Assembly (NCBI GenBank): GCA_019057385.1
Contig: JAHQJS010000004.1
Span: 186,001-250,000 of the forward strand
Length of the DNA: 64,000 nt
From: Candidatus Borrarchaeum weybense
Lineage (GTDB): Archaea > Asgardarchaeota > Sifarchaeia > Borrarchaeales > Borrarchaeaceae
Reading direction: 5' to 3'
Part shown: piece after piece, positions 8,442 through 37,676 of the stretch
Layout: each line of letters starts with the position of its first letter
How positions within the stretch are numbered: the first letter of the stretch is position 1
Made by a program: the position numbers and the translations under genes
Notes under the pieces: generated by a model
Told to the model about the DNA's origin: nothing
Database searches by the model: none
The model's input: only the letters and a program-made list of their open reading frames with translations

Positions 8442-9968
8442 ATGACAATCTACATGGAAGAGCGATTAGAGCACATATTATGTAAATTTTGCAATAAGCC
8501 GACAGCAATGCATGTTTGTTTGGAATGTTATTCGCTTTTTTGCGAGAGTTGTGCTCATATGGAAGTAAGCAACTATTATTTCTGTAGCATATGCTTTTCG
8601 AGTGACATTCGTAAACTGAGAAGGATCAATAAAGACATAACTAAATTGTTTTGTGGGAACTGCGGATCATCAAAGATCAAAGAAGGGAAACAAAAATTAC
8701 AATTATGTCCTGCATGTGAGTCAAGAAACTTTGAACATATTTATACACACCAACGCAACCTATTCATGAAGTATCGTGAATTCTGTGAAAAATTGAATCA
8801 TGCATTAGAGGAGTCCCAGAGATTTGTAAAAAGTCTGGGAGAATATAGAGACCTTATATTGAAGTTACGCAGTCAGGGTTATTTTACATTCCCCTTTCTT
8901 GAAAAAAACCTTCTTGAAGCATATTCTTCCTTTGGCAATATAGAAACGCAACTTATTGAGCGAGAAAGTCTATATTTAAGTTTTTTAAGACGATATATGA
9001 TGGATTTCTTGAATAAGAAGCAAATTCTCCCCTTTCTATTCAAGAATTATAAGGAAAAACTAGAAAGAATTGATGAAGCATGTACAGTCTACAAAACTAG
9101 CGTTGATAAATTATTTGAAGGTTTTGAGAACTCATTTGGAGAAATTGAAAGCACATTAAAGTCTCTAGAAGAGAATAAAGAGCAATTTGAAGAGCGGAAA
9201 GAGGTGCTTAGTTTAGGACTGAAAGAAAAGCCAATATGTAATCTTCCTGACATTACTTGTAAATTAAATAGATCGTCTTTTCCAGTAAAAACAGGTCGTG
9301 GACATCTTTTCTTTACGAATTATCGCCTGGTTTTTATTGCAAACAAAGGATTAGTGTCCAAAAATTCAGTAAAATTATTTGAACTACCTATTTCAAAAAT
9401 CGTTGGTTGTTCAATACGTAAAAGAAAATTTTCTAAAAAACTTCTTCTCAAAACAACGAAAGGCTTAATCAGCTTTTCTGGGGACATGAATACTTTGAAA
9501 GAATTTGTACAACATATCAAATGTATGAAAGAATGGGAGCAAAATTGTGTTAAAGAAGATGTCATAGAGGAGTTAAAGCGCTGTACGATCACTTTATCTG
9601 AAATCAAACGCAAAACGGATAGGGATATTCAAGAATTGCTGGAAAATAAGCACACAAAGATGTTCGATGTCTCACTAAGACCAAGACTAAGATTTCGTGA
9701 TAAAATCTATGGAACGATAAGTCCTTTAGGTCCTATAGGTCCTAATATACGGCCCCGTGTAGGACCTGTACCCTCTCATTTGGCAGAAGAGATCGAACGA
9801 TTAAAACGTGAAATACATTCAATAGAGAAGACCATCGAACTACTGGACGCAAAATTCAAATCAGGAGGAATCCCTAAGGAATATTATCTACAAAAATATC
9901 GCACATTAACTGCAGAATTATATCAGCTTAAAACACAACTCGATGAGCTGAGCGGTGTAAAACGGTAA
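8442..9968 (+). CDS. B-box-like zinc finger, coiled-coil, PH/GRAM-like protein near ESCRT-III genes
   Basis: A 508-residue soluble protein. Residues 14-51 hold eight cysteines in four Cys-x2-Cys pairs (14/17, 26/29, 34/37, 48/51), like a B-box or RING-like double zinc site. Residues 71-92 form a zinc ribbon (CGNC, CPAC). A long helical region (about 105-255) follows. Then comes a beta-rich segment (about 275-365; GHLFFTNYRLVFIA and KLLLKTTKGLISF) that looks like a PH/GRAM domain. A glycine/proline linker (PLGPIGPNIRPRVGP) leads to a C-terminal coiled coil with a SHOCT-like LDAKFKSGGIPKEYY. A PH fold combined with zinc fingers recalls ESCRT-II Vps36, but homology is not shown. Membrane-lipid or ubiquitin binding is inference. 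Confidence 0.7.
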   Translation: MTIYMEERLEHILCKFCNKPTAMHVCLECYSLFCESCAHMEVSNYYFCSICFSSDIRKLRRINKDITKLFCGNCGSSKIKEGKQKLQLCPACESRNFEHIYTHQRNLFMKYREFCEKLNHALEESQRFVKSLGEYRDLILKLRSQGYFTFPFLEKNLLEAYSSFGNIETQLIERESLYLSFLRRYMMDFLNKKQILPFLFKNYKEKLERIDEACTVYKTSVDKLFEGFENSFGEIESTLKSLEENKEQFEERKEVLSLGLKEKPICNLPDITCKLNRSSFPVKTGRGHLFFTNYRLVFIANKGLVSKNSVKLFELPISKIVGCSIRKRKFSKKLLLKTTKGLISFSGDMNTLKEFVQHIKCMKEWEQNCVKEDVIEELKRCTITLSEIKRKTDRDIQELLENKHTKMFDVSLRPRLRFRDKIYGTISPLGPIGPNIRPRVGPVPSHLAEEIERLKREIHSIEKTIELLDAKFKSGGIPKEYYLQKYRTLTAELYQLKTQLDELSGVKR

Positions 9969-10060
9969 AAACATCTAACCTTACCTTAGAAACTGTTTTT
10001 CCCTTTTTTCTTATAAAATAAGAAATTTAAAAGAAAGCATACTACATTCTATGCTTGTGT

Positions 10061-10729
10061 TTATCCACCAAGTTCGCGTTCCAATTCCTTTCGCAGTTTT
10101 TCAAGTTCTTTTGTGTCTGTCTTTTTCTTTTCTGGCTTTTCGGTTTCACGGACTGGTTCTGTATCAATCGGGGGTGTGATATCAGGCAGTTCCGTTTCTG
10201 ATTCAATGGAAAGTTCGCCCATGAGTGCTTCCATTTCCGCATCAAGTCCGGATTCTTCTTCAAAGTCTAATTCGCTTTCTGCGAAACTTGTATCACCTAG
10301 GATCTCATCAGTCATTGAGATGCGTTCTATTCCTTCCTGACTGCGAAGCATAGTTTTCTCTATCCTCTCGGGTGAGGCTGCCTTAAGCGCATCTTGTATG
10401 GCAACATCAGCCTCTTCCATTGCATTTGCAACATCGATGTTAGAACCCGCTGTCTCAAGGGCAGAAATGGTTCGTTGCAGGTTGAAGACTTTATTGTAAG
10501 TTGTGTTCATCTGTTTTAGATAGAGTTGACGACGCATAAGGGCTTGTTTGGCTGCAACTTTGTTTCCTGCTTTCAAGAACTCTTTCGCCATAACTCTTTG
10601 TTCGTCAGATTGACGTTTATACTTGACAGCTGTCACATTTAGTTTATTTATCGTACGACGAAGGACCGCTACGGTTTTTTGAGGGGTAACCTTTTTTTTC
10701 CCAAACAGTTTTTCTAAGAACTTTGGCAA
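10061..10729 (-). CDS. ESCRT-III family protein, Snf7/Vps20/32-like
   Basis: A 222-residue protein with the ESCRT-III layout. A short N-terminal amphipathic segment (FLEKLFGKKK) precedes a long basic helical hairpin (residues 15-100) with AAKQALMRRQLYLKQM, very like the Snf7/CHMP4 core. An acidic helix region follows. The tail holds a proline-rich stretch (ELPDITPPID) and a final leucine-rich helix (KELEKLRKELERELGG), resembling MIM2 and MIM1 motifs that bind the MIT domain of Vps4. The start is TTG at 10729, since a TGA lies just upstream in frame and GAGGTG sits at the right distance. Role: membrane-remodelling filament, as in division or vesicle formation. No Vps4 gene is in the window. 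Confidence 0.85.
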   Translation of the reverse strand: MPKFLEKLFGKKKVTPQKTVAVLRRTINKLNVTAVKYKRQSDEQRVMAKEFLKAGNKVAAKQALMRRQLYLKQMNTTYNKVFNLQRTISALETAGSNIDVANAMEEADVAIQDALKAASPERIEKTMLRSQEGIERISMTDEILGDTSFAESELDFEEESGLDAEMEALMGELSIESETELPDITPPIDTEPVRETEKPEKKKTDTKELEKLRKELERELGG

Positions 10730-10817
10730 TCAATTCACCTCATCTAGACGACGAAGTACGAGACAAAAAATTACTCTTTGATATCCCTCTATACTCATTA
10801 TTGATTGTACCTTCAAG

Positions 10818-10826
10818 TTATAAATC
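10818..10826 (-). promoter_or_regulatory. TATA-like box for the Snf7-like ESCRT-III gene
   Basis: The minus strand reads AGATTTATAACTTG, a good archaeal TATA match. It would place a transcript start near 10795 and a leader of about 65 bases before the TTG start, unlike the mostly short leaders around it. The rest of 10830-10984 shows nothing I can assign. Confidence 0.45.
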
Positions 10827-10984
10827 TCTTTTCTTATTTCGTGCGCGCACCCCCATCATTTACAGTTTTTATAATCAAATAGAGAAATAGCATCTCATCA
10901 ATTGCGTAACCTTCAGGGGTGCTTAAAAGAATTCTTTGAAAGAAAACTTCGATGAAAAACATTTGTTAAAGTAAAAGGATCAGA

Positions 10985-11320
10985 TTAAAGCTGTATAATT
11001 GTTTCTACTCTTTTGTCTTTGGATATTTCTGATAATAATCCCAAAAAATGCTTCTGAGCTTTTTTTAGTTCTTTAAATTTATGAAAATTCTTGATTTTTG
11101 AGTTTTCAGCAATAAAGGAGAAGTATTTTTCATCTTGACCTCGTAATAAACACAGAAAAATATCATCACTAAAGCAGACGCTCTGAATTAACTCCCATCT
11201 GTATGGAATAGGTTCACGATTCCCCCTCATCTTTGCTTTCTCCCTAGATGATTTTAAGTGGATTTGATTAGATAAAAACAACTTCAGAGCAATATCTCGA
11301 AGTAAAACAACTTTTCCCAT
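10985..11320 (-). CDS. Small uncharacterised protein in the ESCRT neighbourhood
   Basis: A 111-residue, basic, soluble protein (MGKVVLLRDIALKLF start). A TTTTAAAC box lies about 25-30 bases upstream of the ATG, so the mRNA would be nearly leaderless. It has two beta-rich stretches (YRWELIQSVCF, DIFLCLLRGQDEKYFSFIA) followed by helices, which could be a small PH- or WH-like fold; no family recognised. It lies on the same strand as the ESCRT-III genes on both sides. It could be spurious, but it has its own promoter-like element. Confidence 0.5.
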   Translation of the reverse strand: MGKVVLLRDIALKLFLSNQIHLKSSREKAKMRGNREPIPYRWELIQSVCFSDDIFLCLLRGQDEKYFSFIAENSKIKNFHKFKELKKAQKHFLGLLSEISKDKRVETIIQL

Positions 11321-11469
11321 AAATATAATTTCAACAGAGTTTAAAAGCCCCGCAAAATTTCAAAATCAGACATAGTTGATTTTCAGAGAAAAGAGATAAA
11401 TTACATATTCAATAAAAACAAGTTTTTGTTCTAGATTCTTGTATTGAGGGTGCATAGATGAATCTAGTT

Positions 11470-12576
11470 TTACATATACAGTTTATTACGTTCTTCTATC
11501 CGTTCTGCCATCCATTTACTGAATTGAGCAAGTGTAGGATCTATTTTTTTTTCTGAGTAGATCAATTCGGCAGAGGCTACTATGGAGGCGATAATATGTG
11601 CTTTATTTGCATCAGGTAGCTGTGGTATCTGTTCTAATTCTTGCTTAACGCGTTTTTCAAAATCATCAATTGTGAGTAATCCCTCCATGACCAGTCGAAA
11701 GCCAGTAAGGATATTTTCTGTGATATTTTCTAGGTCAATTTCCAAATTAAGACCCTGAAGAAATGCTAAAGTAACATTCACAGTCTCAGCATAACATTCA
11801 AAAATAAGGAGAGGATCGTCCATGCGATCTTGTGTTTGTGACAATGCAATTTCTGGTGGAATCTTCGTTTTTAATGCATGTGCAATCTTTAATTTTCCAA
11901 ATTCACGAATCGTATCTAAAAACGGAAGGATAAAAGAAAGTACTAGAGGTGCAAAATCAATATTGTTTTCTTCAAGAAGTATTTCGATTGCATCGTGGGC
12001 TTCTTCAAACGTAATTTCTTCTGTAATATACGCCTTAAAGATTTCAATAATCAATGCACGAATATGAAGGGCTAATTCATAATTTCTGAGACGCAAGGTA
12101 AGTAAAGTAAATACAGTTTCCATCAACTCTCTGTCAAAAAATGTGATAAGAATCCATTCTGCAGTTAATCCTTTAATGTCCCGTATACGTTCTTCAATAT
12201 CTGTATCTATCTCCACTTCTTTCCTAAATTGCTTTGCAAATGTGGTTAATGAATTAACAATGAATTGCTGAAGGGTATCATCAATATCAACTGTATTGTA
12301 TGTTCGTTTCATAAATGAAAATATATCTTCCTCTTTAACTGGCGCAATTAACGCGTTCTTAAAAGATTTGAGTAATTTTTCATGCAGTAAACTTCTTTTC
12401 TTTGGGGTTAGAGTTAAAACAAGTCTTTCAATTATAGGCCAGAAGACAAACTTGAAGAAATCATTTAAGAGTTCTTCATTTTCTTTTAAGAAATTGTTAG
12501 GCAAATTTACTCCCTCTTCTTTTTCAAGAGAAGACATGATAATTTGTGCTTTCCAAAATCGTTTAAAAAATCTCAT
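11470..12576 (-). CDS. Uncharacterised all-helical protein between the two ESCRT-III genes
   Basis: About 368 residues from the ATG at 12576 (MRFFKRFWKAQ); alternative in-frame starts are 12627 and 12537. It has no signal peptide and no clear membrane helix; it is built of amphipathic helices throughout, with hydrophobic repeats such as LALHIRALIIEIFKAYI and VTLAFLQGLNLEI, and an acidic middle (EVEIDTDIEERIRDIKG). The C-terminus is DPTLAQFSKWMAERIEERN. I do not recognise it. Its same-strand position between two ESCRT-III genes suggests a linked role, for example as an adaptor. That is inference from neighbourhood only. Confidence 0.7.
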   Translation of the reverse strand: MRFFKRFWKAQIIMSSLEKEEGVNLPNNFLKENEELLNDFFKFVFWPIIERLVLTLTPKKRSLLHEKLLKSFKNALIAPVKEEDIFSFMKRTYNTVDIDDTLQQFIVNSLTTFAKQFRKEVEIDTDIEERIRDIKGLTAEWILITFFDRELMETVFTLLTLRLRNYELALHIRALIIEIFKAYITEEITFEEAHDAIEILLEENNIDFAPLVLSFILPFLDTIREFGKLKIAHALKTKIPPEIALSQTQDRMDDPLLIFECYAETVNVTLAFLQGLNLEIDLENITENILTGFRLVMEGLLTIDDFEKRVKQELEQIPQLPDANKAHIIASIVASAELIYSEKKIDPTLAQFSKWMAERIEERNKLYM

Positions 12577-12720
12577 AATATGGCCTGTGACACATAGAGA
12601 GCTCAATCTTTTCAAAGAAAAAGACAAGCTTCTATAAAATATACATTAATCTCTGTATCGAACCTAATTTGAATCTAGTGTAAATAAAAGAATACAGCGT
12701 TGATGGAAATAAAAGACTAA

Positions 12721-13305
12721 TCAGTCTTCTTTCAGTTTTTCAATTTCTTTTTGTAGTTCTTTTGATCTAATATCTGGAGAAGGTAGTCCTGTTTCGGCAT
12801 GTACACTCCTTTCAGCGCCAAGTTCCACCATTATCTTATCTACTTCAGTATCCTCGACATCTGCTGCCATTGTACCCTCAAGTCCATCTTCCATCACTTC
12901 ACTAGTGATATCTGCCTCACCGAGCACGCCTTCTAGTTCATTGATAGTTTGTCCAAGTTCAGGCGCTTTAATTTGTGCATTAACTGTACGTAATGACCTG
13001 ATAACCCATTTGAGATCTTTTCCCAGATCACCTACTGCTTGTGCACGTTCCAACTTAAATTGTAGACCATTGATCCTGCTCTGTAATTGACTGTAGCCCA
13101 TGGCCCATCGCCGATAGCGTGCTGCATCTGTTGCATACATCCTTCCATTGTCTAAATTTCCCTGTTGAATCTCTCCACGCGCTTCACGAAGCATTTTTCT
13201 TTCTTTGTTTTTTAGTTTCTTTTTCTGACGCTCAAGTCTTCTGTCCGTGAGTTTTAAGTTTATGATCAAATCCTGAAGGCTTTTTCCTCCACCAAGCCAG
13301 CTCAT
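12721..13305 (-). CDS. ESCRT-III family protein, Vps2/24/46-like
   Basis: A 194-residue protein from the ATG at 13305 (MSWLGGGKSLQDLI), which gives the amphipathic N-terminus usual in Vps2/CHMP2. A longer frame reaches 13374, but a TATA box (TTTATAAG, about 13376-13384) abuts that ATG and would start transcription inside the extension. The core is the basic helix LKLTDRRLERQKKKLKNKER and ARGEIQQGNLDNGRMYATDAARYRR, matching the Vps2/24/46 hairpin. An acidic C-terminal half follows. The tail ends in SKELQKEIEKLKED, a MIM1-like helix. It should co-polymerise with the Snf7-like protein at 10061. Confidence 0.87.
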   Translation of the reverse strand: MSWLGGGKSLQDLIINLKLTDRRLERQKKKLKNKERKMLREARGEIQQGNLDNGRMYATDAARYRRWAMGYSQLQSRINGLQFKLERAQAVGDLGKDLKWVIRSLRTVNAQIKAPELGQTINELEGVLGEADITSEVMEDGLEGTMAADVEDTEVDKIMVELGAERSVHAETGLPSPDIRSKELQKEIEKLKED

Positions 13306-13472
13306 AAATCTTTTGAATACTATTTTAATCACTTCTTTTACGATCTTTCTTTTATCTAAGAAAAGATCACGCATCCTTATAAAACTTTGTATGCGACTTT
13401 TTTCGTCCCCTGCTAGTAATTCTGTCTGATCAAGGGTGTCAGACCTTTATATTTGTTTACAGTTTATTTATT

Positions 13473-29509: not shown

Positions 29510-29971
29510 TTGAGCTTAAGTGAAGAAGATTATTGGGCCAGGCTGGCTTATGAAGCAAAACATGTTAAAAGTGAAGAACCTGGGTTCAAACCTGAAAAAG
29601 GGGATATTCGTAAATGGCATGGTTTCATCCTTGGTACTGAATTGTACGAAGGTGGGGTTTTTCAGATCGAAATTGAAATCCCTAGACAATTTCCTTTCGC
29701 ACCTCCACATGTAAGATGGCTCACAGAAATCTGGCATCCGAATATTTACAAAGAAAAAGTTTGTGTTGGATTACTAGGTAAGGATTGGTCCCCCTCAAAT
29801 AGCTTAGTTGATGTCATTGAGACTCTTAGAATATTATTAGCAGCGCCAAACCCTGCAGATCCTCTAAACACTTCTGCTGCTAATCAGATGGAAAATGATC
29901 TAGAACGCTTCAAGAAGACTGTTAAAGATTTTATTGAGCAATATGCTACTTGGGAAAAATTACAAAATTGA
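29510..29971 (+). CDS. Ubiquitin-conjugating enzyme (E2) homologue
   Basis: A 153-residue protein spanning the whole UBC fold: FQIEIEIPRQFPFAPPHVRW, the HPN tripeptide (76-78), catalytic Cys85 in KVCVGLL, then WSPSNSLVDVIETLRILLAAPNPADPLN and a C-terminal helix. These are the hallmarks of eukaryotic E2s and appear all present. The start is TTG at 29510 with GGGGG a few bases upstream; no better start exists. It would take an activated ubiquitin-like protein from the E1-like enzyme encoded next (124 bases downstream) and pass it to a target. No modifier gene or RING E3 is evident in the window. Confidence 0.93.
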   Translation: MSLSEEDYWARLAYEAKHVKSEEPGFKPEKGDIRKWHGFILGTELYEGGVFQIEIEIPRQFPFAPPHVRWLTEIWHPNIYKEKVCVGLLGKDWSPSNSLVDVIETLRILLAAPNPADPLNTSAANQMENDLERFKKTVKDFIEQYATWEKLQN

Positions 29972-30094
29972 CAAACTCTCTCAAAATAAATACAAATCCA
30001 TTGTGCATCCTATTTTTAAGTTTTAATAATTGTTAATCTGCTAATCTAAAATCAAGAATCTCTGGGATGATTGTGTCTCCTTTCGGTGATCAAA

Positions 30095-31105
30095 ATGAGT
30101 GAAAATGGCGATAGATATCATAGGCAAACTATAATGCCGAACTGGGATCAAAATAAGATTTCTAATGCTACAATATTCCTTGCTGGAGTTGGAGCACTTG
30201 GATGTGTTGTAGCAGAGATATTAACTATGATGGGTGTTGGTAAATTGGTAATTGTGGATTTTGATACTGTTGAACTTTCAAATTTGAACCGTCAATGGCT
30301 ATTCCGTGACGAGGATATTGGAAAATCAAAAGCTTTGGTCGCAAAAGAACATCTTAAAATACTAAATCCTTCTGTCGATGTTATTGCCTTTAATCAAAAG
30401 ATAGAGGACATTCCAGATCGTATTTATGCAATGTGCGATCTGATTGTTTCCTCTTTAGATACCTTTGAGGCACGCCGCTGGTTAAATTCAATGTGTGTTT
30501 CTGTAGGAAAACCATTAATTGATGCAGGTCTTTACGAATTCTTTGGTCATGTTCAGGTAATTATCCCTGGGTCAGATGCTGCATGTCTTGAATGTCAACC
30601 CCTAATCCCCGAAACTCGATTACAGCAAGTTTGTACCCTCCCTGGTGAACCGAGGAAGAAAGAAAGGGATGAACCGAAGGAGGTATTTCCATCTGTTGGA
30701 ACGATTTCTGCCGTAATTGGAGGAATTATGAGCCAAGAAATTGTGAAACTGCTATTAGGGCTTGGGAATCCTATTGGATATCTCTTTTACGATGGTCTTT
30801 CTGAAGAATTCACAAAACTTGATCTTAGTAGAAGATTAGATTGCTTTGTATGTGGTGAAAAGTGGAAACTTGATGAATTAAGATATTTCGCAGAAGGAGA
30901 TGAAAAAATAGGCGAACTACGGAAAAGAATAGCATTGATCTACGGTCTCGCTGATCCTACAATGATAGTGGGAACAAAAATAGTTGATGACGAAATGAGT
31001 ATTACTGAAGCGGAAATATCTGAGCATGCGCTGATCTTCGTTATAGATGCGACTGTGGCTAAACCGATACGAATAAGAGTTGTCTTAACTCATAATTCTG
31101 TTTGA
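30095..31105 (+). CDS. E1-like (ThiF/UBA) activating enzyme with a ubiquitin-like C-terminal domain
   Basis: 336 residues from the ATG at 30095, with GGTGA upstream. Motifs: RYHRQTIMP start, GVGALG (31-36) for ATP, VDFDTVELSNLNRQWLF, cysteine pairs 164/167 and 250/253 for zinc, and Cys180 in VCTLPG, where E1 enzymes carry the catalytic cysteine. Residues 270-320 look like a ubiquitin-type beta-grasp (IGELRKRIALIYGLADP, then VGTKIVDDEMSITEAEIS, then ALIFVI). In eukaryotic E1s the C-terminal ubiquitin-fold domain recruits the E2. It likely forms one unit with the E2 at 29510. Confidence 0.9.
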   Translation: MSENGDRYHRQTIMPNWDQNKISNATIFLAGVGALGCVVAEILTMMGVGKLVIVDFDTVELSNLNRQWLFRDEDIGKSKALVAKEHLKILNPSVDVIAFNQKIEDIPDRIYAMCDLIVSSLDTFEARRWLNSMCVSVGKPLIDAGLYEFFGHVQVIIPGSDAACLECQPLIPETRLQQVCTLPGEPRKKERDEPKEVFPSVGTISAVIGGIMSQEIVKLLLGLGNPIGYLFYDGLSEEFTKLDLSRRLDCFVCGEKWKLDELRYFAEGDEKIGELRKRIALIYGLADPTMIVGTKIVDDEMSITEAEISEHALIFVIDATVAKPIRIRVVLTHNSV

Positions 31106-31151
31106 TATTATAATTTTTTTCTAGAATCAAGATTAATTGGAAGGAAATCTA

Positions 31152-31955
31152 ATGTCTTTTAAACTAGCTATCGTTGGCAAAGGGGGTGTAGGAAAGACCT
31201 TTTTAGCGGGAACTTTAGCAAGGTTATTTGCGAAAGATGGTAAAAATGTTCTTGCAATAGATGCCGATCCTAATTTAAATTTGCATGCAACATTAGGCGG
31301 TATTTCTAAAACAAAGATGAAAAACCTAACACCAATTCGCGAGATGAAAGACCTCATTGAGGAGAGGACGGGCGTTCCTGCAGGGACGTCAGGCATGTTT
31401 GTTCTAAATCCAAAAGTGGATGACATTCCTGATAAATATCATGTTAAATCCGAGGATGGAGTTAAACTTATTGTTCTTGGAACCATCAAGACTGCTGGAG
31501 GCGGCTGTATCTGTCCAGAAAGTGCTCTTTTGCGCGCATTGTTAAGCCACATTATTTTACATCGCGACGAAGTTGTTATAATAGACTTTTATGCAGGTCT
31601 TGAGCATTTAGGGCGAGGCACAAGTAAAGGCGTTGACGCTATGATAATTGTCGTGGAACCAGGAACTAGATCGCTCGATCTAGCAAAAAGAATCAATTCT
31701 CTTGCAGCAAGTCTTGGAGTCCCTCGACGTTATTTCGTTGGAAATAGAATTTCAAATAAACAAGAAGAGGAATTCCTGCTTAATTCAAGCAAAGAGTTAG
31801 AATTGGAGTTATTGGGGCTCATCCCTTATGATACCGAAGTAATTCAATCCGATATTAAAGGCATAGCGCCAATTGACTTTGCCCCAGAATGCCCAGCGCT
31901 CGTTGCGATTCAAAACATCAAAGAAATACTAGAAAAGAAACTTGCTTCTCAGTGA
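31152..31955 (+). CDS. CooC-like MinD/ParA family ATPase
   Basis: 267 residues from the ATG at 31152 behind GGAAGGA. The deviant Walker A GKGGVGKT (9-16), DADPNLNLHATLGG, the CxC motif in GGGCICPES and FYAGLEHLGRGT identify the CooC branch. These ATPases help insert nickel into CO dehydrogenase and related enzymes. No such enzyme is in the window. It follows the E1 gene by 46 bases on the same strand; whether it works with it is unknown. Confidence 0.85.
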   Translation: MSFKLAIVGKGGVGKTFLAGTLARLFAKDGKNVLAIDADPNLNLHATLGGISKTKMKNLTPIREMKDLIEERTGVPAGTSGMFVLNPKVDDIPDKYHVKSEDGVKLIVLGTIKTAGGGCICPESALLRALLSHIILHRDEVVIIDFYAGLEHLGRGTSKGVDAMIIVVEPGTRSLDLAKRINSLAASLGVPRRYFVGNRISNKQEEEFLLNSSKELELELLGLIPYDTEVIQSDIKGIAPIDFAPECPALVAIQNIKEILEKKLASQ

Positions 31956-32084
31956 AATAAGAGCTATCGGGCAGAATTGAAGTATTGAACATCTAGATTT
32001 TTGCTAGGAGTAATTCATTTCAGGTATATCTAACGTATTGCTAGAGATAATACGAATATTAAATACTTCAATCTTAGTTTGTAA

Positions 32085-32798
32085 ATGTATAATCACTTTT
32101 TGACGGCGACAAAAATGACTCAATCTGAAATTGAAGTTGATGGAAACATCATTATCAATGGAAAGGCGTATCCTGCTATTGAACTTCTAAAAGCAATTAA
32201 CAGGTCAGTCGCACTTTCTTTCGATAATGAAACTGCACAATTGATACTTAATGATATGCCTATTAAGCCGGTTAATAGTTCTACAAGAAAAAACGTGTTT
32301 TCTCTTTTATGTTATCACAGCTTAGCGTATTGTTGCCCTAGAACTCATAAATGTGATAAACGTGACGCTACATTGAAAATGCTTAATATCTCGCCAGATG
32401 AGTATTCTCGTATTAAAGATGAGCATCATTCACTTTTTCTAGAATTTGAACACACGCATTCACATACCACTTACAGTGAGAATTCACCGTCACGTGTTGA
32501 TGATAATTTAGATCTTTCATCCTTTTTTGGTAGTCCAAATGAAGATTCAAAGACAGAAAAAGAAAATACAGAGGATTTCCTTAAGGAATTTCTCTCAGGG
32601 AATGATTTCGACAGCAATAGTATGTGGGATAGTTCTTTAAACCAAAATGAAGTCCGTTATGGAAGAAAAAATGTTCCTCCATCAACAGAAACAGGTTTAC
32701 GTAACTTGAGTTATTCTGGCAAATGTCCACGCTGTAGAAAGCGAAACTCTCCTGATGATAAATTCTGTTCTCGTTGTGGAGCGGAACTTAGAGATTAA
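32085..32798 (+). CDS. Uncharacterised protein with C-terminal zinc ribbon
   Basis: 237 residues from the ATG at 32085; an ATG at 32115 is an alternative. Residues 80-90 hold a cysteine cluster (YCCPRTHKC). A low-complexity acidic and serine-rich linker follows (about 120-210). The tail is a zinc ribbon (CPRCRKRNSPDDKFCSRCGAEL). Its position after the E2-E1-CooC genes makes it a candidate partner, but there is no RING signature and the link is inference. A TATA-like ATTAAATAC lies about 25 bases upstream, so it may have its own promoter. Confidence 0.65.
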   Translation: MYNHFLTATKMTQSEIEVDGNIIINGKAYPAIELLKAINRSVALSFDNETAQLILNDMPIKPVNSSTRKNVFSLLCYHSLAYCCPRTHKCDKRDATLKMLNISPDEYSRIKDEHHSLFLEFEHTHSHTTYSENSPSRVDDNLDLSSFFGSPNEDSKTEKENTEDFLKEFLSGNDFDSNSMWDSSLNQNEVRYGRKNVPPSTETGLRNLSYSGKCPRCRKRNSPDDKFCSRCGAELRD

Positions 32799-34016: not shown

Positions 34017-37000
34017 TTACATAAAAAGGTCAAGTCTTCTTATACCGATAATAGATCCAAAATCTACGTTTAATGCGTCAAGAACCTGTGTGAAGATACT
34101 TTCAACATGTTTTTTGTATTTTTCTGTGTCTATTTCATCAATCGAAGCTATTTCAACAGGTTTTACACCAGGCTCCCCCCTCACCTTCACAAATGAAATA
34201 ATGCTACCAGGCTCGATGTCTCTGTTCAATAATCTTGCAGCCTTTACATGTTGAGGTGTCGTCTTTTGATAACTTTTCAAGTTTCTAGTCATTTGAACAC
34301 GAAATGCGAGTTCCTCTAATGAATATTCGAGATTTTTCAATTTATCTAGACATGTCTTTACTATCGTACGTATTTTGTTTCTAGCTATTTCGAAGTCATC
34401 TTGAACTTTTACTTCCGAAAGCACATTCATCATTTCGAAAAATGCGTCTTGAAGGAATAATGGAGTATGACGCTTTTTTCCCGTCAGTCCTTTAATATCC
34501 ACAGAGCCGCTTTCATATACACCTAGATAGTTCTTTTTTCTCCCTGAAAGAGCAACATATCTGTAAATCTTGTCAATATCTAAATCAATATCAAGAGTGT
34601 GTTTGCACCATTGCGTAAGTTCTTCGATTTGGGACTCTGAAGGATTTTCTAAGAATACAGAGTCAGTATCTCCATAGATAACAGAGATATCCATTTTCTG
34701 AGCCTTTTCGATAGTTTGTGTAATGATAAATCTTCCGAGAGCTGTTGTACTTTCAGCCACCGGCAGGCAATATAAGGGAAAGTGTTCTGCGCCAAAGACG
34801 CCATAGAACGCATTAATAATAAGCTTTAAGGCCTGTTGAATAACATAGTATAGTTCTTGTGTTTCTTTGCCTAACGTTTTGTTTTTTGACTGTGGCTTAA
34901 ACCATTTCAGTCTTATGTCTCTTAGAAATCCAATAATAAGACCTGCAAGGCCTCGTTGTTTTTTACAAACCCAATGGTCTGTATCCGGTATAAGATTTTG
35001 TTTACATTCTGGATGTGTACACCTTACAGTCTCATAACTAAGGTTATGGACTTTTATAATGGAAGGATACAAGCTATTTCCAGTTACAGCTGGCTTGCCA
35101 TTACGTCTGACAATAACAGTACTGTTAGGAACTGCAACACACCATACTTTTCCGAAATAATTCTCTCTTTGTATACGATTATGCTGACCGTTAAACACAT
35201 TTTTTCTTGTATAACTTAAAAGGCAGCGATAACTAACATGATCTTTGTATACGGTGTCAAAAATCTTACAATCTCGTACTTCTTTTCTTATTGCACAACC
35301 ATATCCGAGTCTAAGCGCAAGTTCTTGAAAATCGTTTGCTCTTTCCTTATATGTAGAGGAAAAAGAAAGACATTTTCCTTTATACCAACTTCCGTCTCCT
35401 AAAATCATGGAATCAAATAGAAGTTTTAAATGTTTTTTTTCAAATCCAAGAATTTTTCTTGGAATTCTCTTCTTATAAGAACCATTTTCTTCGATTAATC
35501 CTTTTTCTTTGACCAACCAGTTCTTAAATTCCCTTTTGAATTTAACATTGTGAATTTCGAATACTCTATGGTTTTTTCCACGCCTAGTATATTCATATTC
35601 TTTGAATGGAAAACCAAGATGTGTTAAAGCGGATCTTATGTGGTGAAAGTTTTTCGTTTTTGATTGAGAGATTTGAATACCTTTTGTTATAATAGATCCA
35701 TCAGTTAAGAACCATCCTAAAAAGGGAAGAAATTTCTCTGGCGAAAAAACATTATTTCCTATGATAATATTGTCAGACTTACCGACCCATTTGCCAAAAG
35801 AAGGAATTCTGAACCAACTGCGCTCGCTTAGTTCTTGTGCTTCTGCGAATTCAAGCTTATTTTCCCAAACCGTTTTTTTTCTTTCATTAGTTCTTCTGTT
35901 GAACACCACTCTATGATTTGGTGTAACTAGTAGATCTAAACCACCTTTGATTGAGAAATTATACATCTCTCCTTCGTAATCATACTCAAAAATCCTTTGA
36001 TGTTCTTGAAACTCTATCTCACCTGCAGAAATATTTACAGTTGCAATTTTTGGAGAACGATTAGTGTTCTTTAGTCTAGCTAATGTATGCCAGCCATCGT
36101 CTGTAAGTATTTCAGTATCTTCCGAAAAGCATGCAAAATCCAAGACAACAACGTCAAAATGAACGCCCGGCAAGGGGTCAATAACAATGGCACCTTTGTA
36201 TTTCTTTCCTTTTATTATTGCCTGCGTTGAAGCCTCTCCTCCTTTTGCCTCCTTGATGTCGTTTGGTAATGGGATCAGATAATCATTCTTTCTATGTTCA
36301 TAATAAAACAGATTTTGAATCCAAGAAGATACACTTTGACGCGTAACATCTTCAAGAGACAAATGGGAAATTCTCATCAGTAGCATTATCAATTTCCAGA
36401 CAAGGTTTTCACTATAGCGAGTAAGGTCTAAGGTAATCTTTCCATCTCTAAAGCAATAACTGGCTAAATCTAATAGAGGCAACTTCGAAAGTGGGTGCTC
36501 TACTTTTATTTTTTCGATGTCTAATAACGCTTTGGCTACGGTATTGAGGTCAGTAGTTTTATATTTTGCAGAGAATGCATATATCTGAACAGCTCGGTTG
36601 TTAAAGAACCTGTAAAGATCTACATGGATATTTCTCGACAGAGCAACAAAATCTTTTCTAATGATCAATGGGATGTCAGCTCTTCGAAATCCAAGGTGGT
36701 TAAGAGCCCGATAATACAAATAAGGCATATCGAATTTGTCACCATTATACGTTAAAATAACTGGATATTCGTTGAAGATCTGAAATATTTCTCGAAGAAG
36801 TTCTTTTTCCTTTGAAAAATACTCGATCCTTACATCTTCAAGGTTATCTTTGGCGTCTCCAATTTCCACATCTTTTCTTTCAAGGATTAGTATTCGCTTT
36901 TGCCCATCCGATGCTACAACAGAGACACACCCAACAGGGAAATTTGCTTGTTCAGGTCTTGGAATTGCGTCTGCAAAAGGTGAGATAACTTCAATATCAA

Positions 37001-37676
37001 TAGCCACACGTTTTATATCAGGTATGGGTGATAAAAAGAGAGATACATTCTCTTCCAGCAGTTCTTTCACTTCTTTTGGTTCATCTTCAAATAGTCGCCT
37101 AATTTCTTCTTTAATCTCTGCCGGCACGATTGCTGCGCTATTAAGCTGGTTATCAAAGACTTCATAAGGCAAACCGGGTGTTAACTCTAAATCCGCTATG
37201 TAACATTTGTGATATGGAATATTTGCTTCCCACGCCGTTGGTAGTAACTCTCGAATAGCCCCTGTTCTCCCACCTATTGCAAGTGGGTCTTTAGCAATTA
37301 TTTTTGTCATTTTTATAGACCTATCTTGCAAAAGATCCTTTTTTTCAACCGTTTCCATATCCAAAAATCCTGTATGGTTCGTTATCTTAGAGTTGTTTTT
37401 CAGCTCTTCAATGGAAATATTTGAAAAGCAATAAGGATGATGTTCTGAGTAGTCATGCCAGAAATAAATTGACTGATTTCTTGGATCATAAAATCGTGCC
37501 GCCGCACAACTAGTCTTTCCATCATATTCAACTGAAAGCAAAAAATCTGTCTTTTTAGTTGTTAGTTCTTTAGCCTCTAATTCAGTTATTTTCTCTTCTT
37601 TTGAGGATTTTTCTTTCTTTTTTTGTGGTTCATAAGATTCAAAAAACTGATCAAGTGTAGTTTCTGAGAAATCCAT
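34017..37676 (-). CDS. Family B DNA polymerase, interrupted by an intein
   Basis: A 1219-residue precursor; without the intein it is 867 residues, normal for archaeal PolB. Exonuclease motifs: RVAIDIEV (Exo I), LTYNGDKFD (Exo II) and YCFRDGKITLD (Exo III). Polymerase motif A is DFA|SLYPSII, split by the intein; motif B is KLIINAFYGVFG and motif C YGDTDS. The N-terminal region contains a charged, lysine-rich stretch (15-45) of unknown use. It is a replicative or repair polymerase with proofreading. ATG at 37676 has GGAG upstream. Confidence 0.95.
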   Translation of the reverse strand: MDFSETTLDQFFESYEPQKKKEKSSKEEKITELEAKELTTKKTDFLLSVEYDGKTSCAAARFYDPRNQSIYFWHDYSEHHPYCFSNISIEELKNNSKITNHTGFLDMETVEKKDLLQDRSIKMTKIIAKDPLAIGGRTGAIRELLPTAWEANIPYHKCYIADLELTPGLPYEVFDNQLNSAAIVPAEIKEEIRRLFEDEPKEVKELLEENVSLFLSPIPDIKRVAIDIEVISPFADAIPRPEQANFPVGCVSVVASDGQKRILILERKDVEIGDAKDNLEDVRIEYFSKEKELLREIFQIFNEYPVILTYNGDKFDMPYLYYRALNHLGFRRADIPLIIRKDFVALSRNIHVDLYRFFNNRAVQIYAFSAKYKTTDLNTVAKALLDIEKIKVEHPLSKLPLLDLASYCFRDGKITLDLTRYSENLVWKLIMLLMRISHLSLEDVTRQSVSSWIQNLFYYEHRKNDYLIPLPNDIKEAKGGEASTQAIIKGKKYKGAIVIDPLPGVHFDVVVLDFACFSEDTEILTDDGWHTLARLKNTNRSPKIATVNISAGEIEFQEHQRIFEYDYEGEMYNFSIKGGLDLLVTPNHRVVFNRRTNERKKTVWENKLEFAEAQELSERSWFRIPSFGKWVGKSDNIIIGNNVFSPEKFLPFLGWFLTDGSIITKGIQISQSKTKNFHHIRSALTHLGFPFKEYEYTRRGKNHRVFEIHNVKFKREFKNWLVKEKGLIEENGSYKKRIPRKILGFEKKHLKLLFDSMILGDGSWYKGKCLSFSSTYKERANDFQELALRLGYGCAIRKEVRDCKIFDTVYKDHVSYRCLLSYTRKNVFNGQHNRIQRENYFGKVWCVAVPNSTVIVRRNGKPAVTGNSLYPSIIKVHNLSYETVRCTHPECKQNLIPDTDHWVCKKQRGLAGLIIGFLRDIRLKWFKPQSKNKTLGKETQELYYVIQQALKLIINAFYGVFGAEHFPLYCLPVAESTTALGRFIITQTIEKAQKMDISVIYGDTDSVFLENPSESQIEELTQWCKHTLDIDLDIDKIYRYVALSGRKKNYLGVYESGSVDIKGLTGKKRHTPLFLQDAFFEMMNVLSEVKVQDDFEIARNKIRTIVKTCLDKLKNLEYSLEELAFRVQMTRNLKSYQKTTPQHVKAARLLNRDIEPGSIISFVKVRGEPGVKPVEIASIDEIDTEKYKKHVESIFTQVLDALNVDFGSIIGIRRLDLFM
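35076..36131 (-). other. Intein with LAGLIDADG homing endonuclease, in PolB motif A
   Basis: 352 residues, Cys516 to Asn867 of the precursor. N-terminal splice block CFSEDTEILTDDGWHTLA; block B TPNHRV with the conserved His; C-terminal block VWCVAVPNSTVIVRRNG ending AVTGN before the +1 Ser. The two endonuclease helices are FLGWFLTDGSI and LLFDSMILGDGSW, each with its aspartate, so cutting activity may be intact. The residue before the terminal Asn is Gly rather than the usual His. The insertion point is within the DxxSLYP active site, a known hot spot for polymerase inteins. Confidence 0.93.

Follow-up and report, generated by a model that had tools for sequence, protein, structure and literature searches.

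The window analysed here is a stretch of 64,000 nucleotides, bases 186001-250000 of contig 4, in the genome of Candidatus Borrarchaeum weybense (4.18 Mb in 8 contigs). Borrarchaeum has been placed in the class Sifarchaeia (PMC9723677), and Candidatus Borrarchaeum yapensis (G003 in our genome set) is a relative of the same genus. Five genes lie within positions 8442-13374 of the window, one on the plus strand facing four on the minus strand, in the order IIIA-P4-P3-IIIB, facing Znr_CC_PH_SB:

8442-9968, plus strand: Znr_CC_PH_SB protein, 508 residues, recognised by homology, its cysteine pairs, and profile and hhalign matches
9195-9587, plus strand: PH domain of the Znr_CC_PH_SB protein (AlphaFold model, Foldseek, weak Pfam GRAM match)
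10061-10729, minus strand: ESCRT-IIIB (Snf7/Vps20/32/60 class), 222 residues, TTG start (Pfam and PDB sequence matches)
10985-11230, minus strand: P3, 81 residues, specific to Borrarchaeum (reading frame open to 11320, start corrected)
11470-12537, minus strand: P4, 355 residues, all-helical, three tandem four-helix repeats (reading frame open to 12627, start corrected)
12721-13305, minus strand: ESCRT-IIIA (Vps2/24/46 class), 194 residues, with a MIM1-like core (reading frame open to 13374; Pfam and PDB matches)

The positions of the reading frames bear out the initial annotation of this DNA, which had described a five-gene ESCRT neighbourhood at this site. The Pfam and PDB matches agree with it on a Snf7-like and a Vps2/24/46-like ESCRT-III gene about 2 kb apart on the same strand with two other genes between them, as do the cysteine pairs and the PH model on a zinc-finger/coiled-coil/PH gene at their flank. 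The two intervening genes, given there as 111 and 368 residues, are real, but their lengths had to be corrected. The open frame of P4 is cut in B. yapensis by an in-frame stop ahead of the ATG at its residue 31, and another stop breaks the N-terminal extension of P3; because the extensions are interrupted in this way, the two proteins are taken to be 355 and 81 residues long. The extensions were rejected as coding sequence on account of these stops and of the absence of third-position bias. Over the genes proper the mismatches fall mainly at the third codon position, 17/13/42 over the three positions for P4 when the two Borrarchaeum species are compared and 18/12/31 for P3 against its paralogue, and on these grounds both are considered real genes. 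The intergenic gaps measure 183-255 bp, so that the genes may or may not be co-transcribed, a point against the reading favoured below.

The locus encodes both a B-type and an A-type paralogue of the Snf7 superfamily. ESCRT-IIIB matches Pfam Snf7 at 1.5e-18 (67.4 bits against a cut-off of 27.3), and its top PDB match is the ESCRT-IIIB of Heimdallarchaeota AB_125 (9ftl, 5.4e-37). ESCRT-IIIA matches the same Pfam family at 1.2e-13 (51.5 bits against 27.3), with CHMP1B (3.9e-13) and CHMP2A (9.4e-13) as its top PDB matches. Of the MIM-like helices that had been reported in both tails, the one in ESCRT-IIIA stands: an L-x3-I-x2-L-K core, LQKEIEKLK, lies near the C-terminus, and such a core is found in 0.7% of shuffled tails. 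The ESCRT-IIIB tail gave no match to the MIM1 patterns tried. As in the A/B pair known from Asgard archaea (Heimdallarchaeota AB_125; CHMP1B/CHMP2A class), the two classes share one locus; the Borrarchaeum pair differs from it in being split by two extra genes, and in having Vps4-Vps25 at another site, about 60 kb off. The two proteins would together form a membrane-remodelling polymer, which Vps4, encoded at that distance, should dismantle through MIT-tail contacts.

This second locus lies at 126.8-135.2 kb of contig 4, about 51-59 kb before the window begins. One of its strands encodes Vps28, Vps22 and a Vps23 with UEV and steadiness box; the other encodes Vps25 and a MIT-containing Vps4. 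The ESCRT system is complete, divided between two loci of the same contig, and a real loss of Vps4, Vps25 and Vps22 was rejected once this locus had been found. The initial annotation had noted that these three genes are missing and had argued from the absence that the unassigned genes could be lineage-specific ESCRT parts. The absence holds inside the window; on the contig all three genes are present, and the argument was an effect of the window.

Other genes of the window may be mentioned here. A ubiquitin-type cluster at 29510-32798, about 16 kb away from the ESCRT-III pair, contains a ubiquitin-conjugating enzyme E2 (Pfam UQ_con, 3.5e-33) and then an E1-like ThiF protein (5.6e-62); genes for a ParA-type ATPase and for a zinc-ribbon protein follow. 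A 1219-residue reading frame at 34017-37676 resembles, on inspection of its translation by eye, a family B DNA polymerase with an apparent intein, and the list of reading frames suggests a series of glycosyltransferase-like, sulfotransferase-like and ABC-export genes at 37711-63267.

The 508-residue protein fits a family that has already been published. It carries predicted cysteine-pair zinc sites at residues 14-92, followed by a coiled coil, a PH domain at residues 252-382, and a C-terminal steadiness box at residues 446-508. The cysteine pairs are conserved among 13 homologues. The PH region is modelled by AlphaFold as seven strands plus a helix, and Foldseek matches it to PH domains, among them that of yeast Vps36 (2cay, 3.6e-4). 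The steadiness box falls below the cut-off in a single-sequence Pfam match; the profile of the protein, however, finds the yeast Vps23 headpiece as its best PDB match (2p22, 1.5e-5), together with the Vps23 structures 2caz and 2f66, and hhalign aligns the C-terminus with the Vps23 of the same genome at 96%. All of these elements, and the neighbouring ESCRT-III gene, are shared with the Asgard family Znr_CC_PH_SB (asCOG cog.011556), a proposed ESCRT-I component (PMC10936438), and no difference from it was found; the likeness, and hence the membership, is judged by architecture. Yeast Vps36, a subunit of ESCRT-II, likewise combines a PH fold and zinc-binding sites in one chain. The Asgard protein differs from it in its steadiness box and coiled coil, and a winged-helix region was not recognised. 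Homologues occur in 28 of 39 Asgard genomes, frequently adjoining ESCRT-IIIB. The protein is an ESCRT-I-type part that has been described before and is found widely among Asgard archaea, rather than one specific to this lineage; its PH domain is predicted to bind the membrane, and its steadiness box to join ESCRT-I.

P4 is a different matter. No Pfam family was matched above the cut-off and nothing of note was found in NCBIfam or among PDB sequences. The AlphaFold model, built from six P4 sequences only, has 15 helices and no strands at a moderate pLDDT of 70, and it matches no PDB fold at E<=0.001. P4 contains three segments, each about 100 residues long, whose alignments with one another score above all 30 shuffled controls (46.6 against a shuffled maximum of 16.2, 25.4 against 18.0, and 19.7 against 14.8), and because every control is outscored P4 is a protein of three repeats. 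Kinship to the Znr_CC_PH_SB protein or to the helical N-terminal domain of the ATPase described below was tried and rejected (0.9% and 0.3%, respectively).

Since P4 is encoded within an ESCRT locus without Vps25, one may ask whether it is a known subunit that has diverged a great deal, such as an ESCRT-II winged-helix protein, Vps28 or an ESCRT-III protein. We consider this very improbable. The strandless model speaks against a winged helix, and the tandem winged-helix domains of ESCRT-II were not found in P4; neither fold nor sequence searches returned an ESCRT protein, which was also the outcome of the structural comparison suggested with the initial annotation. Vps25, Vps22 and Vps28 are, moreover, encoded elsewhere in the same genome, and P4 and Vps25 occur together in three Jordarchaeia genomes (G017, G031, G038). 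P4 is an undescribed all-helical protein that is associated with ESCRT rather than a recognisable ESCRT subunit.

What ties P4 to ESCRT is its company in other genomes. Of 228 Asgard genomes searched with a P4 profile, 17 contain the family at E<=1e-3. With the f-numbers standing for family labels assigned by the tool, some of which can be named, these are two Borrarchaeum genomes, five of the Jordarchaeia type (four in f12 and one in f28), four f23 genomes, one with a divergent copy in f28, four with distant copies in f3, and G007 with a weak fragment; extra f23 copies were seen when the loci of G088, G090, G092 and G093 were read. The f3 homologues (L089 8854-10101; L090, L091, L092) have about 415-434 residues and lie near a GTPase gene, not within an ESCRT locus. 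P4 sits somewhere between the ESCRT-IIIA and ESCRT-IIIB genes in Borrarchaeum and Jordarchaeia and adjoins ESCRT-IIIB in f23, at 20-29% identity. The gene order is IIIA-HerA-P4-IIIB, facing Znr_CC_PH_SB, in Jordarchaeia, and HerA-P4-IIIB in f23.

For counting, a genome was taken as evaluable if it had a strong P4 and either a contig reaching at least about 2 kb past P4 on the ESCRT-IIIB side or a visible ESCRT-IIIB gene; G017, G089 and G092, whose contigs end too soon, were left out. ESCRT-IIIB lies within about 2 kb of P4 in 10 of the 13 evaluable genomes (G000, G003, G031, G038, G101, G177, G086, G087, G088, G094). The loci were fetched for P4 or the ATPase, so the count describes association given P4 and not the reverse. 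The initial annotation had proposed to ask whether the unassigned proteins co-occur with ESCRT-III across Asgard genomes; P4 does so, adjoining ESCRT-IIIB in three separate Asgard lineages. Most Asgard genomes of the set are fragmented assemblies, and a profile search detects no P4 in most of those that bear ESCRT-III; for this reason it cannot be a core ESCRT part.

Outside Borrarchaeum, P4 directly adjoins the gene of a HerA-family ATPase in 13 genomes. This protein of about 875-1170 residues has a HerA central domain that matches HerA structures and exceeds the Pfam cut-offs for DUF87 (2e-13) and HerA_C (4.8e-6), with intact Walker motifs and invariant RGSGKS and DEAH. Full-length or near-full-length copies come from f12, f28, f23, f6, f11, f24 and f25. 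The gene lies between ESCRT-IIIA and ESCRT-IIIB in Jordarchaeia, G008, G013 and G103, adjoins ESCRT-IIIB in G024, and stands between ESCRT-IIIB and Vps4 in G102. A HerA-family ATPase is found inside ESCRT-III gene sets under seven Asgard family labels. In G008 the ESCRT-IIIB-like gene beside it (L045 8888-9756) spans two frames, by a frameshift or an assembly error. The f4 copies are shorter and more distant, and none of the three examined was in an ESCRT locus. A hairpin at the C-terminus of the ATPase was convincing by eye as a steadiness box linking it to ESCRT-I; hhalign gave 4.9% and a PDB search no match, and the idea was dropped.

The genome of the window has no orthologue of this ATPase: its HerA matches are weak, at 50 bits, whereas members of the true family score about 1,650. 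P3, on the other hand, leads to another ATPase. Its family was found in only three Borrarchaeum genomes among the 228 Asgard genomes, and it thus does not accompany ESCRT-III outside the genus. Together, these results leave part of the earlier proposal of lineage-specific ESCRT parts standing: the 508-residue protein and P4 are linked to ESCRT, but the former is widespread and known, and P3 lacks the wider association. In all three Borrarchaeum genomes the P3 paralogue (contig 7 of G000, at 225.3 kb) begins before a CedD/HerA-like ATPase gene has ended, with an overlap of 1-4 bases, and this paralogy is the only lead to a role of P3 in the ESCRT locus. The CedD/HerA-like ATPase is a membrane ATPase (L053, contig 7, 216001-236000), and genes for a type II/IV secretion ATPase and Cdc6 lie nearby. 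NCBIfam HerA models match both this ATPase and the ESCRT-linked one; a direct similarity of the two was not detected by hhalign.

HerA is a DNA translocase in other archaea. The ESCRT-linked ATPase shares with the HerA-NurA type the central domain and the structure matches, and differs in having an N-terminal helical domain without a confident relative, in sitting with ESCRT-III, and in being missing from the genome of the window. It is conceivable, though we think it rather unlikely, that the ATPase and P4 make up a DNA translocase held in place by a division ring of ESCRT-III, so that several Asgard lineages would couple ESCRT-III to DNA translocation through P4 in the manner of bacterial FtsK. 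The Borrarchaeum version would then have been remodelled: with the ATPase gone from the locus, the CedD-like ATPase of the HerA superfamily might have taken over, and P3, related to the partner of that ATPase, might have been recruited to the ESCRT locus. The comparison with FtsK draws on the function of HerA elsewhere and on gene order. It is encouraged by the placement of the ATPase within ESCRT-III gene sets under the seven labels, and by the ties of P4 and P3 to HerA-superfamily ATPases, through synteny and through the overlapping paralogue, respectively. Against it, a closely matching ATPase is missing from most Asgard genomes, P3 and P4 are unlinked outside Borrarchaeum, and the CedD-like ATPase bears no detectable similarity to the ESCRT-linked one.

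HerA ATPases usually act in the resection of DNA ends or in anti-phage defence, and the NCBIfam HerA matches obtained here include both types. The pair of ATPase and P4 might accordingly be a DNA-repair or defence module that resides in the ESCRT locus by shared ancestry and does not work with ESCRT, a reading we hold to be doubtful. ESCRT-IIIB is not beside P4 in three of the 13 evaluable genomes (G090, G093, G176), which counts against P4 as an ESCRT-III accessory, and in G090 and G093 the pair itself occurs without an adjacent ESCRT-IIIB. Placement inside ESCRT-III gene sets nevertheless recurs in distant Asgard families, neither a NurA nuclease nor a defence gene was recognised among those neighbours of the pair that were scanned, and the P4 of Borrarchaeum stays in the ESCRT locus despite the missing ATPase.

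We favour, at a probability of roughly 55%, the reading in which these genes make up one arm of a two-locus system, that of ESCRT-III and accessory ESCRT-I, with P4 as an ESCRT-III accessory scaffold; a three-repeat helical scaffold is its most likely nature. Such a scaffold would bind the ESCRT-IIIB polymer and, where present, the neighbouring HerA-family ATPase. In Borrarchaeum the ATPase was probably lost rather than gained elsewhere, and P4 may have been retained as the ESCRT-side part. It is worth pointing out that two further observations weigh against the scaffold: P4 resembles no ESCRT protein by sequence or fold, in a model of moderate confidence, and in Borrarchaeum it has no ATPase partner in the locus.

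The ESCRT cluster itself is of a known kind. P4, and the putative link of HerA to ESCRT-III, which may serve in clearing DNA at division, are the new part. In a full-text search of a collection of papers with the terms HerA, ESCRT-III and Asgard, the top-ranked papers mention HerA at most once, and the main text of the ESCRT survey (PMC10936438) does not mention it. The finding bears on whether the role of ESCRT in Asgard archaea is cell division, vesicle formation or both, and a conserved helical-repeat protein and a HerA-type ATPase in ESCRT-III gene sets are named candidates by which membrane scission could be connected with DNA. They hint that the archaea most closely related to us may couple the cutting of membranes to the handling of DNA.
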